Assembly: GCF_013823385.1 (NCBI RefSeq)
Contig: NZ_PNMA01000002.1
Location: 124,001 to 188,000 of the forward strand
Length of the DNA stretch: 64,000 nt
Source: Hyphomonas sp.
Lineage (GTDB): Bacteria > Pseudomonadota > Alphaproteobacteria > Caulobacterales > Hyphomonadaceae
Direction: 5' to 3'
Shown: positions 1-8,738 of the stretch, one piece after another
How the letters are laid out: every line of letters starts with the position of its first letter
How positions within the stretch are numbered: the first letter of the stretch is position 1
The notes under the pieces: model-generated
The model's database searches: none
Seen by the model: only the letters and a program-made list of their open reading frames with translations
Told to the model about the DNA's origin: nothing
Translations under genes and position numbers: made by a program

Positions 1-476
1 CGGCTGACGCCCAGGAGGATGACATCGGCGCCGATCAGGCCTTCCACATTCTGCCCATCATCATGGGCCAGGGTGAAGTTGATCGCTTCCATCCGCTCGA
101 AATAGTCTTCGTCGAGGGCGTGCTGGCCGGCGACCCGGTTGTTCGGGGCCACACCCAGATGGCGGCTCAGCATGGCAATTGACGGGTCCAGCACCGGCAG
201 GGTGGGTATGCTCCGCTCACGGCAGAAGGCTTCCAGCCGGCCGCGCAGCGCGCCGTCCGAAATGGTGTACCACACCACACCGGGGGCCGCCTCGATCTCC
301 TTCATCACTCTTTCAAGCTGACGTTCGGAGCGAACGAGGTAATAGTTGTGTTCCAGCGGCTGCACATTCTCGAACTGGGCGCAGGCCGCGCGCTGGATGG
401 CGTTGAGCGTCTCGCCCGTACTGTCGGACACGAGATGCACATTGAAGTAGATGCTGGGGCGTTGAGGCTGGGTCAC
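1..476 (-). CDS. ppsR: Pyruvate, phosphate dikinase / PEP synthase regulatory protein (partial, N-terminal part)
   Basis: Only the first 158 codons are in the window; the gene runs off the left edge. Translation from a GTG at 476 gives a protein starting VTQPQRPSIYFNVHLVSDST, followed by GETL. This is the N-terminal signature of the DUF299 bifunctional kinase/pyrophosphorylase family, which inactivates and reactivates PPDK or PEP synthase by ADP-dependent phosphorylation. The visible part ends at ILLGVSR, the beginning of the family P-loop (GVSRTSKTP type), so the nucleotide-binding part lies outside. No ATG fits the conserved N-terminus. The gene diverges from hemE across the putative origin, as in Caulobacter-type chromosomes. 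Family assignment is firm; whether the target is PPDK or PpsA cannot be told here. Confidence 0.88.
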   Translation of the reverse strand, partial: MTQPQRPSIYFNVHLVSDSTGETLNAIQRAACAQFENVQPLEHNYYLVRSERQLERVMKEIEAAPGVVWYTISDGALRGRLEAFCRERSIPTLPVLDPSIAMLSRHLGVAPNNRVAGQHALDEDYFERMEAINFTLAHDDGQNVEGLIGADVILLGVS

Positions 477-817
477 GGATGTCTCTTGCCGGTCTGGCGC
501 CGATTTCACAAGGGGTGTGACTCCCATGTGGAATTCCAAATCACACACACGGATTCACAGGCGACTCACAATTGCAGGATTCTCACCTCTGGAGAGTCAC
601 GCTGCGTTCTCCTCTGTGATTCCAACACGGACGTTTACACCCTGTTAACCATTGACTCATTTCGGATTTGAAACGCCACAGCATCGCGGGCCAATCTGTG
701 ACTCGCCTGTGGATTTGCCGGGATAAAGCGTTAACAGATGGGTTATCCCTGAATCCCTCGGGGTTATAATCATAAGCGCCCTGACGGGCATTTAGATGAG
801 ATTGGGAAGGGGACTTC
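477..817. other. oriC: Putative chromosomal replication origin (oriC)
   Basis: This 341-bp gene-free stretch lies between divergent ppsR-like and hemE genes, the position of Cori in Caulobacter. It is visibly more AT-rich than its surroundings. It holds nine GANTC sites (starts 519, 552, 563, 578, 594, 618, 654, 700, 751). Six of them sit in a repeated nine-base element ending TCACA or TCACG that resembles the 3' half of a DnaA box. Two TTATCCC elements face each other (720-726 minus, 743-749 plus), an AAATCCACA-like box is at 708-716 (minus), and a TTAACCAT CtrA half-site is at 645-652. An AT-rich run at 762-775 could be part of an unwinding element. Origin function is inferred from synteny and motif content. 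The hemE promoter must also lie here. Confidence 0.75.
645..652 (+). promoter_or_regulatory. CtrA half-site (TTAACCAT) in the origin
   Basis: TTAACCAT matches the CtrA half-site consensus described for Caulobacter. The second TTAA of a full box (TTAA-N7-TTAA) is absent, because the bases seven downstream read CTCA. A second TTAA at 731-734 is followed by GTTATCC and also lacks a clean partner. CtrA binding here is inference from motif and location. Confidence 0.45.
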
Positions 818-1852
818 GTGGCAACGTCCGTTAAGAAATTGCTGGCTGTACTGTCAGGCGAGGCTGTGAAACCACCTCCGGTGTGGATGATGCGCCAGGC
901 TGGGCGCCACCTGCCCGAATATCTGGAGACGAGAGCGAGAGCGAAAGACTTTCTCGATTTCTGCTACACCCCGTCCCTTGCCACCGAAGCCACGCTTCAA
1001 CCCATCCGCCGCTATGGCATGGACGGGGCAATCCTCTTCGCAGACATCCTGCTCATCCTGGATGCGATGGGTCTGAAAGTGGCTTTCGAGAAGGGAGAAG
1101 GCCCGCTGGTCGAACAGATTTCCGGCCCATCCGATCTGGGAAGGGTCACGCCTCAGAAAGCGGCCGACCGTCTCGCGCCTGTCTATGAAACCGTTTCCCG
1201 CGTGAAAGCCGCCCTGCCTTCGTCCACCACGCTGATCGGATTTGCCGGTTCACCCTGGACGGTCAGCCTCTATGCCGTCGAGGGCCGGGGCAAGACCGAC
1301 AAGTCCACCGCCTGGCGCTGGGCCCATGGCCGGCCGGAGGATCTGGCAGCCGTAATGGATCAGGTCACCGAAGCGACAGCGCATTATCTTTCCCGCCAGG
1401 TCGAGGCCGGCGCCGATGCGCTGATGCTGTTTGACAGCTGGGCCGAGGGCCTTCCGGACAACATCTTCCGCGAAGTCGTCATCCAGCCGACGAAGAAGCT
1501 GGTCGCCCGGCTGCGGGAAATGGGCATCACGGTGCCGGTGATCGGATTTCCGCGCGGCGCGGGCGTCATGCTGCCCGAATATGTGCGGGAAACCGGGGTC
1601 ACAGCTGTTGGGCTGGACACGGCTGTCTCGCCCGCCTTCATCAATGCGCAGTTGCCGGCGGGTTTTCCGGTCCAGGGGCATCTTGATCCCCTCCTCCTGA
1701 TCGAAGGGGGCGGGCGACTTGACGCACGCGTCCGCGAATTGCTGGACGCCTACAAGGGACGGCCCCATATCTTCAATCTCGGTCATGGCATTCGCCCCGA
1801 GACCCCGATTGCGCATGTCGAACGTGTGCTGGAACTGATCAGAACCGAATAG
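818..1852 (+). CDS. hemE: Uroporphyrinogen decarboxylase
   Basis: The cytosolic enzyme decarboxylates the four acetate side chains of uroporphyrinogen III to give coproporphyrinogen III. At 344 residues it has family length. The N-terminal signature MMRQAGRHLPEY lies at about residues 24-35, including the two arginines that hold substrate carboxylates. ILFADILLILDAMG carries the conserved aspartate, FAGSPWT follows, and a C-terminal GHGI is present. The GTG at 818 is the only start that keeps the N-terminus at normal length. The gene begins directly at the putative origin and is followed three bases later by hemH, so hemE-hemH-hemJ probably form one transcript. In Caulobacter the hemE promoter lies inside the origin and is linked to CtrA; the same layout is present here. 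Confidence 0.97.
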   Translation: MATSVKKLLAVLSGEAVKPPPVWMMRQAGRHLPEYLETRARAKDFLDFCYTPSLATEATLQPIRRYGMDGAILFADILLILDAMGLKVAFEKGEGPLVEQISGPSDLGRVTPQKAADRLAPVYETVSRVKAALPSSTTLIGFAGSPWTVSLYAVEGRGKTDKSTAWRWAHGRPEDLAAVMDQVTEATAHYLSRQVEAGADALMLFDSWAEGLPDNIFREVVIQPTKKLVARLREMGITVPVIGFPRGAGVMLPEYVRETGVTAVGLDTAVSPAFINAQLPAGFPVQGHLDPLLLIEGGGRLDARVRELLDAYKGRPHIFNLGHGIRPETPIAHVERVLELIRTE

Positions 1853-6246: not shown

Positions 6247-8111
6247 TGCCGGACTTCCCGGATTTCGACGTTATTGTCATTGGTGGCGGCCATGCCGGCT
6301 GCGAAGCGGCGGCCGCGTCCGCCCGCTTTGGCGCGCGCACCGCGCTCATCACCCACAGGCTGTCGACGATTGGCGAGATGAGCTGCAACCCCGCCATCGG
6401 GGGGCTCGGCAAAGGCCATCTCGTGCGCGAGATCGATGCGCTCGATGGCGTCATGGGCCGGATGGCGGACAAGGCCGGCATCCAGTTCCGGATGCTCAAC
6501 CGGTCCAAGGGCCCGGCCGTCTGGGGGCCCCGCTCGCAGATCGACCGCAAGCTCTACCGCGAAGCGATGCAGGCCGAGCTGGCCGATTATCCAAACCTCA
6601 CCCTCATTGAAGACGGCGCCGAGGATCTGATCGTCGAGGATGGCACCATCCGGGGCGTGATCGGCCTCACCGGCAAACGCTATTCAGCGGCCAGGGTCGT
6701 CATCACCACGGGCACCTTCCTCAAGGGCGTGATCCATATCGGCGCCAAACGCATTCCTGCCGGCCGGATTGGGGAAGCGCCCGCGCTTGGCCTGTCTGAC
6801 CGGCTCTATGCCATCGGCCTGCCGATGGGCCGCCTCAAGACCGGTACGCCCGCCCGCCTCGACGGCCGCACCATCCATTGGGACCGGCTCGAGATGCAGC
6901 CGGCCGATGACCAGCCGATCCCGTTCTCCTTCCTCAACTCCGAGATCACGGTCCCGCAGGTCCAGTGCGGTATCACCTGGACGACGCCGGAAACCCATTC
7001 GATCATCGAAGCCCATATGGAAGAGTCCGCAGTCTATTCCGGCGCCATCTCCGGACGCGGCCCGCGCTATTGCCCTTCCATCGAAGACAAGGTGAACCGC
7101 TTCGGAGACCGCGACCGGCATCAGGTGTTTCTGGAGCCAGAGGGCCTCGACGATCACACCGTCTATCCGAACGGCATCTCCACCTCGCTTCCCGAAGAGG
7201 TCCAGGAGAAGTTCATCCGGACAATCCCCGGGCTGGAAGAAGTCACCATCCTCCAGCACGCCTATGCGATCGAATATGACTATGTCGATCCGCGCGCGCT
7301 GAGCCCGGCGCTGGAAGTCAAACTCATGCCGGGTCTCTATCTGGCGGGCCAGATCAACGGGACAACCGGATATGAAGAAGCCGGCGCTCAGGGCCTGATG
7401 GCCGGCCTCAACGCCGCGCGCGCCGCCGCCGGAAAAGACCCGGTCATTTTTGATCGGGCTGAAGCCTATATCGGCGTCCTGATCGATGACCTGGTGACCC
7501 GCGGCGTGACTGAGCCCTATCGGATGTTCACTTCACGCGCCGAATACCGGCTTGCGCTGCGCGCCGATAATGCCGACCAGCGCCTTACCCAGAAAGGCAT
7601 CGAGGCCGGTGTCGTGGGCGAGAAACGCGCCGCAATGTTTCACGTGAAACATCGGGCTCTGGAATCGGCCCGGAATCTTCTGAAAAGTCTCAATCTCAGT
7701 CCGGCGGCTGCCGCACGTAATGGATGGGCGGTCAATCAGGATGGCCGCGTCCGCTCAGCCTGGGAATATCTCTCTTATAAGGAGATCAGCTTCGCGCATC
7801 TGGTGGCCGTCTGGCCCGAGCTTTCTGAGCTCCCTCCAGACATCATTGCTCAGATCGAAATCGAAGCGCTCTATTCGGCCTATCTGGATCGCCAGGCTGA
7901 GGATGTGGCCGCGCTCCGCCGCGATGAAGCGCTGACCCTTCCCGCCGATCTCGACTATGACCTGATCGGCGGCCTCTCGAATGAGGTCCGCCAGAAGCTG
8001 AAAGCGGTCCGTCCGGGCACACTCGGTCAGGCTGCGCGGATTGAAGGCGTCACACCGGGCGCGCTGACGGCGCTACTCGGCCACGTCCGCCGTGTCCGCA
8101 AAGCGGGGTAA
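6246..8111 (+). CDS. mnmG: tRNA uridine 5-carboxymethylaminomethyl modification enzyme MnmG (GidA)
   Basis: FAD- and NADH-dependent partner of MnmE. It is 621 residues, normal length. The N-terminal Rossmann motif is [12 protein letters not shown], the GidA signature [18 protein letters not shown] follows, and [11 protein letters not shown] and [17 protein letters not shown] are present. The ATG at 6246 opens directly at the flavin-binding domain. The coding sequence carries a perfect 16-bp parS palindrome at 7636-7651, read through as FHVKH about two thirds along. rsmG starts three bases after the stop, so the two are almost certainly co-transcribed. Confidence 0.97.
7636..7651. other. parS: parS centromere site inside mnmG
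   Basis: TGTTTCACGTGAAACA is a perfect 16-bp inverted repeat, 18 bp counting the flanking A and T. It is identical to the consensus parS bound by chromosomal ParB proteins. It lies about 1.9 kb upstream of parB and 7 kb from the putative origin. Confidence 0.93.
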
Positions 8112-8114
8112 AAG

Positions 8115-8738
8115 ATGAGCGCGCAAGACGACCGCGCGGCCTTTCTGGCCGCCAATGATGTTTCACGTGAAACATTGGACCGTCTGGACCGGATCATTTC
8201 GGAGCTCGATGTCTGGCGGCAGAAATCCAATCTGATCGGCCCGAAAGAGTGGCCCCAGATCTGGACGCGCCATGTCGGCGACTCCTGGCAGCTTCTGGAC
8301 CATATCCCCGAAACCGCCCGCGTGGTGGATCTCGGATCGGGCGCCGGCTTTCCTGGCCTCATCATCGCGGCGGCCCGGCCCGGCGCCCATGTCACGATGA
8401 TGGAATCGGTCGGCAAGAAATGCGCTTTCCTTCGCGCGGCCATCGAGGCGGCCAGTCTCAACGCCGCCGTTTATCAGGGCCGGATTGAAGCAGCGCCGCC
8501 CAGCAAAGCCGATATCGTTACCGCACGGGCCTTTGCGCCAATGTCACAACTTCTGGAATACGCATCTCCCTGGCTCCGAAAAGGTGCAACGGGGGTTTTC
8601 CCGAAGGGCGAACGCTGGAAAGAAGAATTGACTGAAGCCCGCCAAAGGTGGAATTTCGCTTATGAAGCGATTCCAAGTCGCAGTGGTGGGTCAGGCGTCA
8701 TTTTGATTGTCAGGGAGGTCTTACGTCGTCATGACTAG
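8115..8738 (+). CDS. rsmG: 16S rRNA (guanine(527)-N7)-methyltransferase RsmG (GidB)
   Basis: SAM-dependent methyltransferase that modifies G527 of 16S rRNA. It is 207 residues. The SAM-binding loop VVDLGSGAGFPGL is near residues 72-84, followed by MMESVGKKCAFL and VTARAFAPM. The N-terminal segment NDVSRETLDRLD is typical of alphaproteobacterial RsmG; the DNA encoding VSRET is a perfect parS site. It starts three bases after mnmG and overlaps the parA start by eight bases, so translational coupling is likely. Confidence 0.96.
   Translation: MSAQDDRAAFLAANDVSRETLDRLDRIISELDVWRQKSNLIGPKEWPQIWTRHVGDSWQLLDHIPETARVVDLGSGAGFPGLIIAAARPGAHVTMMESVGKKCAFLRAAIEAASLNAAVYQGRIEAAPPSKADIVTARAFAPMSQLLEYASPWLRKGATGVFPKGERWKEELTEARQRWNFAYEAIPSRSGGSGVILIVREVLRRHD
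8159..8174. other. parS: parS centromere site inside rsmG
   Basis: A second perfect TGTTTCACGTGAAACA palindrome (18 bp with its flanking bases), 523 bp from the first. It is encoded in frame as part of the conserved VSRET segment of RsmG. Two exact copies next to parAB strongly support a functional ParB nucleation region. Confidence 0.93.

Follow-up and report, generated by a model that had tools for sequence, protein, structure and literature searches.

That an initiator site can contain a methylation site is already known from RctB: at the origin of Vibrio cholerae chromosome 2, the sites of this initiator (11- and 12-mers) are arrayed, each of them contains a GATC, and efficient binding to the GATC-bearing sites is reported only when these are fully methylated (PMC2865523). 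That system, however, relies on RctB and Dam, belongs to a secondary chromosome and operates beside SeqA. The origin of Caulobacter crescentus (Cori) lies in the neighbourhood of hemE and combines moderate and very weak DnaA boxes with CtrA sites (PMC4468827, PMC4285127); several GANTC motifs have also been described in it (PMC3973325), but its G-box TGATCCACA and its W-box TCCCCA do not contain GANTC. In Escherichia coli oriC, filling of the low-affinity DnaA sites, which are located 2 bp apart, proceeds from strong boxes (PMC6727663, PMC6070618), and some DnaA sites overlap GATC and are blocked by SeqA (PMC4285127). The Helicobacter pylori DnaA box TCATTCACA has a T at position 5, before CACA (PMC4285127), but it retains T4 and does not include GANTC. 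Control of origin firing by CcrM in alphaproteobacteria is contested: one account states that initiation in Caulobacter needs fully methylated GANTC sites (PMC2865523), whereas the DNA content profile of a C. crescentus ccrM deletion is normal, and its authors conclude that the control of initiation does not require CcrM (PMC3973325). In the literature searched, we recognised no description of GANTC fused to DnaA boxes. In contrast to the V. cholerae system, the locus described here presumably joins DnaA with CcrM on the main chromosome of an organism in whose genome SeqA was not found; compared with oriC, GANTC and CcrM would stand in place of GATC and Dam, and the mark lies inside a 9-mer, in a fixed register.

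The locus is located near the left end of a 64,000-nucleotide stretch (the window, bases 124001-188000 of contig C2) from a Hyphomonas genome of 4.18 Mb. The putative origin is the intergenic region between hemE and a gene which we take to encode a PPSR/DUF299-type product (Table 1). PPSR also adjoins hemE in relatives, and hemE relatives are present in 103 of the 105 genomes of the family. From their translations, the genes 3' of hemE are presumably hemH, hemJ, rho, mnmE, mnmG, rsmG, parA and parB, and the two parS sites sit inside ORFs that we read as mnmG and rsmG. The hemE/PPSR/parAB neighbourhood is the known surroundings of alphaproteobacterial origins, and the placement of the locus between hemE and PPSR, near parAB and parS, fits an origin of the Cori type. 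In Hyphomonas neptunium, the maximum of marker frequency is found close to hemE, but neither GC skew nor searches for DnaA sites pointed to a clear origin (PMC6650430); the failure of the latter searches may be explained by boxes of the form GANTCACA. ChIP binding of CtrA adjoins the H. neptunium origin (PMC7200025).

To evaluate GC skew, twenty 20-kb stretches (400 kb) of the complete congener G046, whose array lies at 696 kb, were sampled. Skew is negative from 20 to 565 kb, positive from 845 to 2265 kb and negative from 2420 to 3065 kb; the sign switches around the array, with the exceptions that signs are reversed in the two origin-flanking stretches and that the value at 3320 kb is positive. 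The contig of the window departs from the canonical pattern in this area, its cumulative skew passing through a small local maximum at the origin instead of a minimum, and this counts against the model presented below. The initial annotation had placed the array at the origin and had proposed GC skew as a check. Gene order and H. neptunium marker frequency (PMC6650430) agree with that placement; congener skew does so with the exceptions given, and the skew of the contig of the window does not.

Table 1. Features of the putative origin and its surroundings. Coordinates are those of the window; counts out of 40 refer to the genus origins compared.
Feature	Position	Strand	Remarks
PPSR/DUF299-type gene (presumed), 5' part	1..477	-	start near 477; flanks origin; from translation
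Putative chromosomal replication origin	478..817	.	intergenic, PPSR/DUF299-type gene to hemE; from gene order
Element A, GGAGTCACA	516..524	-	GANTC 519-523; GANTCAC kept in 34/40
Partner box A', AATTCCACA	527..535	-	2 bp from A; CCACA 33/40, GANTC 0/40
Element B, GGATTCACA	551..559	+	GANTC 552-556; GANTCACA in 40/40, all four bases at N
Element C, CGACTCACA	562..570	+	2 bp after B; GANTC 563-567
GANTC (GATTC) without CACA	578..582	.	other clades retain GANTC here or nearby
Element D, AGAGTCACG	593..601	+	GANTC 594-598; GANTC in 29/40, GANTCAC in 17/40
Element E, GGAATCACA	615..623	-	unpaired; GANTC 618-622; GANTCAC 39/40; N is A, G or C
CtrA-like site, TTTA-N7-TTAA	634..648	+	7 of 8 letters of TTAA-N7-TTAA in the window
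GANTC (GACTC) beside CtrA-like site	654..658	.	GAATC here in another clade despite an indel
Element F, CGAGTCACA	697..705	-	GANTC 700-704; GANTCAC kept in 38/40
Partner box F', AAATCCACA	708..716	-	2 bp from F; CCACA 40/40
GANTC (GAATC) without CACA	751..755	.	
AT-rich stretch and GCCC-TGAC-GGGC inverted repeat	765-789	.	before hemE; ATAAGCGCCCTGACGGGC / TATAATCATAAGCGCCCTGACGGGC strongly conserved (90% consensus of the genus alignment)
hemE	818..1852	+	flanks origin; from ORF
parS, two perfect sites	7636-7651 and 8159-8174		just ahead of parAB

Nine GANTC sites are present within positions 519-755 (starts 519, 552, 563, 578, 594, 618, 654, 700 and 751). When the sequence 481-817 was submitted to 5000 dinucleotide shuffles, a mean of 2.0 GANTC was obtained, nine were reached once and six copies of GANTCAC were never reached. 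Six of the sites are embedded in nGANTCAC elements; the third plus-strand 9-mer has a CACG end, hence five of them, and not six, are exact nGANTCACA. Over the whole window (1-64000) GANTC is strongly under-represented, with 81 sites versus 287 in dinucleotide shuffles, and is therefore otherwise avoided. The densest other 237 bp includes five GANTC in 184 kb of the same contig (220 sites) and four in the 400 kb sampled from G046 (535 sites). Genome-wide, GANTCACA occurs 61 times in the genome of the window, 38 times in G042 and 48 times in G046, and each of the three genomes has five copies within a 189-bp stretch of the origin. Chance clustering is ruled out by the shuffles, the 184 kb of contig, the 400 kb of congener and the genome counts.

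These data bear out what had been noticed from the sequence of the locus: the nine sites in 237 bp are all present, and the six nine-base elements read as quoted, with the CACG-ended one making the exact copies five. Similar density elsewhere and loss of the element in close relatives had been named as contrary outcomes. No such density was seen in the 184 and 400 kb, five of the 61 genomic copies of GANTCACA fall within 189 bp at the origin, and GANTCAC is kept in the origins of close relatives (in 34 to 40 of 40 origins at A, B, E and F, as listed in Table 1, and in 16 at C).

The relatives were taken from a genus set of 42 genomes, which provided 40 origins for comparison. G071 was left out because its contig starts 114 bp before the hemE match; G066, the left half of which is unalignable, was kept in the alignment and removed before the counts. 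The G042 origin was read across a record junction, and the tree, built without it, has 39 rows. The 40 origins have a mean pairwise identity of 64% and form 17 clusters at 90% identity. Each of them contains 5-10 GANTC (mean 8.2) and 3-5 GANTCACA.

A constant trait of these origins is that CACA-ended 9-mers occur as tandem pairs, on the same strand and with a 2-bp gap, exactly three per origin in 40/40. An element has either a TCCACA box or another element as its partner, and the gap is fixed at 2 bp, as between the low-affinity DnaA sites of E. coli. Neither this pairing nor the conservation of the array across the genus had been noted in the initial annotation. The corresponding 11-bp spacing was found in 112 pairs versus 0.2 expected from shuffles, and any other spacing up to 40 bp in at most 11; the number of pairs depends on the definition, being 112 under a stricter rule on the preceding base and 120 otherwise. 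The 240 pair members comprise 128 GANTCACA, 86 TCCACA and 26 others, and when one sequence per 90% cluster is considered (n=17), 46 of 51 pairs include at least one GANTCACA. At site C, the GANTCACA and TCCACA/CCCACA classes replace each other (GANTCACA in 16 origins, TCCACA in 13, CCCACA in 9, other sequences in 2). No paired site other than B is invariant, as GANTC is missing at A in 6/40 and at C in 24/40 origins. The elements had been described earlier as DnaA-box ends carrying a methylation site; in their pairing and exchange across the 40 congeneric origins, the nGANTCACA elements behave, as far as sequence comparison can tell, as a DnaA-box variant with a built-in CcrM site. The methylation site is built into the GANTCACA boxes, not into the partner boxes A' and F'. 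When compared with TTWTNCACA, the 128 GANTCACA members match at 6/9 letters in 105 cases and at 7/9 in 23, and partner boxes at 6-9 of 9. The recognition helix of DnaA contacts TnCACA and Arg399 contacts TTA (PMC5742627), so that GANTCACA should be the weaker class of predicted box. Besides the lack of invariance noted above, two traits count against the model presented below: element E is unpaired, and position 2 has changed at A (twice), E (once) and F (twice).

Changes at the sites were counted on a quick tree of the 39 rows. The N of GANTC has changed at least five times at each of A, B and E, and three times at F. At element B, positions 2, 3 and 5-9 are unchanged; at E, positions 3 and 5-9 are unchanged and position 2 has one change; at F, GA, TC and ACA are nearly constant apart from the two changes at position 2; at A, positions 2, 3 and 5 show 2, 2 and 1 changes, and at C the GANTC state has switched at least three times. 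Because at B and E the N has changed at least five times, and the other positions from 2 to 9 none or once, the constraints of a CcrM site and of a box appear to be superimposed. A GANTC with a free N, in a genome that encodes CcrM, is what a CcrM target looks like. Position 4 is T in 100/112 partner boxes versus 15/128 GANTCACA boxes, and GANTC thus adds a constraint that is not seen in the partner boxes. The register is fixed as well: GAN precedes TCACA in 167/218 cases in the genus origins versus 1/145 in 183 kb of background, and the proportion of GANTC flanked by ACA is 167/329 in the genus origins, 1/211 in background and 4/535 in G046. As sites of CcrM and box-like sites coincide in a fixed register that is kept despite a mean identity of 64%, the contested role of CcrM in origin firing can be directly tested at this locus.

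Two readings of the elements that do not involve DnaA recognition of them were considered in the light of spacing and register. The TGTGA and TCACA contained in the elements resemble what we take to be CRP/FNR half-sites, and a regulator of that type could drive hemE or PPSR from them. TGTGA-N6-TCACA is nevertheless found in none of the 40 origins, and its two places in the genome of the window are not at the origin; spacing speaks against CRP-type sites, which were rejected, and the probability left to this reading is close to nil. Methylation might instead act on DNA structure, the dense m6A destabilising or bending the origin and easing unwinding, whatever protein binds. It is reported that methylation lowers DNA stability, which has been proposed to aid the opening of the Caulobacter origin (PMC2865523), and the total of GANTC is held within the narrow range given above for the 40 origins. 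An effect of this kind predicts density, but neither the fixed register with CACA nor the 2-bp pairing, and we consider it very improbable.

With respect to the machinery, the genome encodes a CcrM of 360 aa, the best PDB match of which is CcrM 6pbd; it scores 609 bits on the NCBIfam CcrM model, under the cut-off of 830. CcrM was found in 103/105 family genomes, the other two being 85% and 87% complete, and one congener encodes a second CcrM-like protein (G056:C1:13609-14670), 52% identical to that of the genome of the window. GcrA is encoded in the latter genome and in 99/105 of the family in all. A search for SeqA (PF03925) gave no matches in the genome of the window and detected the E. coli control. 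The setting that the initial annotation had assumed, CcrM without SeqA, is thus the one encountered.

The DnaA of this genome (entry L254:1405-2862, minus strand) and those of its relatives were compared at the residue which we take to match R399 of the E. coli numbering. It is K in the genus (g1) and in g3, g6 and g9, as examined, R in g4, g5, g7, g8, g10, f2 and f3, mixed in f4 and Q in f5. As the residue concerned reads 5'-TTA, a K there would suit an alternative in which GANTCACA is a plain low-affinity preference of the DnaA of this lineage and the CcrM site a by-product with no role. The K is, however, common to g3, where GANTCACA is absent from the pairs, and the partner boxes, with their T at position 4 in 100/112, lack the G2/A3/N4/T5 pattern. 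We therefore regard a by-product as improbable. Separately, residue 399 was rejected as the cause of the box change, no co-variation being apparent (K is also present in 5/5 of g3 and in 1/2 of f4).

A 114-aa stand-alone protein similar to DnaA domain IV is encoded at L262:1396-1740, minus strand (G000 contig C12, near 44.0 kb). It matches NCBIfam PRK06030-type models below cut-off. Short second matches to PF08299 were obtained in many of the relatives searched, and short domain-IV frames exist; the protein is a possible competitor for DnaA boxes.

Beyond the genus, 48 origin regions out of 63 genomes from the other genera of the family were covered. In the single origin of sister genus g6, GANTCACA accounts for two of the paired boxes, those that correspond to B and F; in sister genus g9, one paired GANTCACA is present, at B, in 2/3 origins. 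Pairs that do not include GANTCACA were found in g3 (23 origins), g2 (2), g7 (5) and one of three g4 origins, and there are no pairs in those of g10 (9), g5 (1) and g8 (1). No GANTCACA-bearing pair was found in 55 further PPSR-hemE regions, none of which has more than two GANTCACA; these comprise 21 named and 34 order-level regions, with four from the family and at least two duplicates among them. Order-level loci outside the family number 35, and one of these (L222) has no PPSR nearby. In the order family f2, probably the Caulobacteraceae, the 13 usable regions contain 0-1 GANTCACA and no GANTCACA pairs, and two members have TGATCCACA. In the regions covered, the full array was seen only in this genus, with partial forms in two sister genera, and the GANTC-CACA fusion seems to have built up within a single lineage.

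Enrichment in GANTC is wider than the fusion, since g10 origins are rich in GANTC (9-13 in 8/9 of them, 2 in the other) and show little fusion to CACA, an ACA flank being present on 4/93 GANTC. Tandem GACTCGACTC and GATTCaGATTC occur in the GANTC-rich origins of g10 and g5 (L082-L092, L096). Among the named loci (L099-L134), those with PPSR beside hemE have 3-13 GANTC in 18/21 cases, and those without it have 0-1 GANTC within 400 bp in 14/15; the exception is L110, whose contig is too short for PPSR to show. That g10 and g5 are GANTC-rich with little CACA fusion means that GANTC alone may matter at origins, as it would if another protein read methylated or hemimethylated GANTC and covered the overlapping DnaA boxes, in the way SeqA does on the GATC sites of E. 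coli oriC, DnaA being blind to the mark. Candidate readers are GcrA, a SeqA analogue and the 114-aa protein resembling DnaA domain IV. GANTC methylation is reported to enhance GcrA binding (PMC3667746), GcrA is widespread in the family, as shown above, and a review suggests that an unknown sequestering protein exists in alphaproteobacteria (PMC6090056). On the other hand, SeqA itself was not found in the genome of the window, and a covering protein leaves the fixed-register fusion of GANTC and CACA (167/329 versus 1/211 in background) unexplained. We consider it unlikely.

The origin array suggests, rather than proves, that methylation has a part in timing the next round of chromosome replication. 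In the model that we favour, nGANTCACA would join a CcrM methylation site to CACA, the 3' half of a DnaA box, and each pair would consist of a GANTCACA box located 2 bp from a second box, mostly TCCACA. DnaA bound to the TCCACA box would recruit DnaA onto the GANTCACA box next to it, and how well DnaA fills this second box would depend on its methylation. Origins would be permissive when fully methylated, a condition that CcrM restores late in the cycle, and the hemimethylated daughter origins would stay refractory up to the next action of CcrM. CtrA, bound to the adjacent conserved site, would represent a second lock; at the homologous place, TTAA-N7-TTAA is matched at 8/8 letters in 22/40 origins and at 7/8 in 18/40. 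We estimate at about 50% the probability that the elements are weak DnaA boxes of the form nGANTCACA, filled according to their methylation by CcrM, with binding, affinity, methylation dependence and its sign presumed; the estimate is a joint one, which also covers the view that chromosome replication in this Hyphomonas-type alphaproteobacterium starts at the array and depends on DnaA.

Full methylation is taken to be permissive because of the analogy with RctB and because over-expression of CcrM in C. crescentus leads to extra chromosomes (cited in PMC3973325). Two reports count against the model: binding of RepC is stated to be independent of methylation (PMC6090056), and the C. crescentus ccrM deletion has a normal DNA content profile (PMC3973325). 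The latter result does not decide the matter for this lineage, since the f2 relatives examined do not have the fusion.

The initial annotation had gone further and proposed a SeqA-like switch operated by a methylation-sensing DnaA or other initiator, which we retain as a conjecture. That DnaA itself is the reader of methylation, the chromosomal origin thus timing its own re-licensing through CcrM and without SeqA, is a tentative proposal, possible but short of probable. If DnaA reads the mark, self-timing would follow from the fact that box and mark are one sequence. After replication, the methyl group of the old strand would be at position 3 of the box in one of the sisters, and in the second sister it would face position 5; with methyl groups at unlike positions, the two hemimethylated origins could differ in their affinity for DnaA. 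A DnaA that reads the mark might therefore provide stalked budding cells with a built-in asymmetry of sister origins.

Two further stretches stand out in the genus alignment. The AT-rich stretch with its inverted repeat at 765-789 is possibly an unwinding element or the hemE promoter. Upstream of element A, a CACAAG (window positions ~502-513) belongs to the 90% consensus and is perhaps a further box-like site. A 15-letter sequence, CACANNNGANTCACA (CACA-N3-GANTCACA), was also searched for. In genus g3 it is absent from G020 and occurs once in G012, away from the origin. In five genomes of the genus of the window it has 3, 3, 3, 3 and 2 matches, 14/14 of which are at the origin, and it thus provides a signature of the origin in these genomes.
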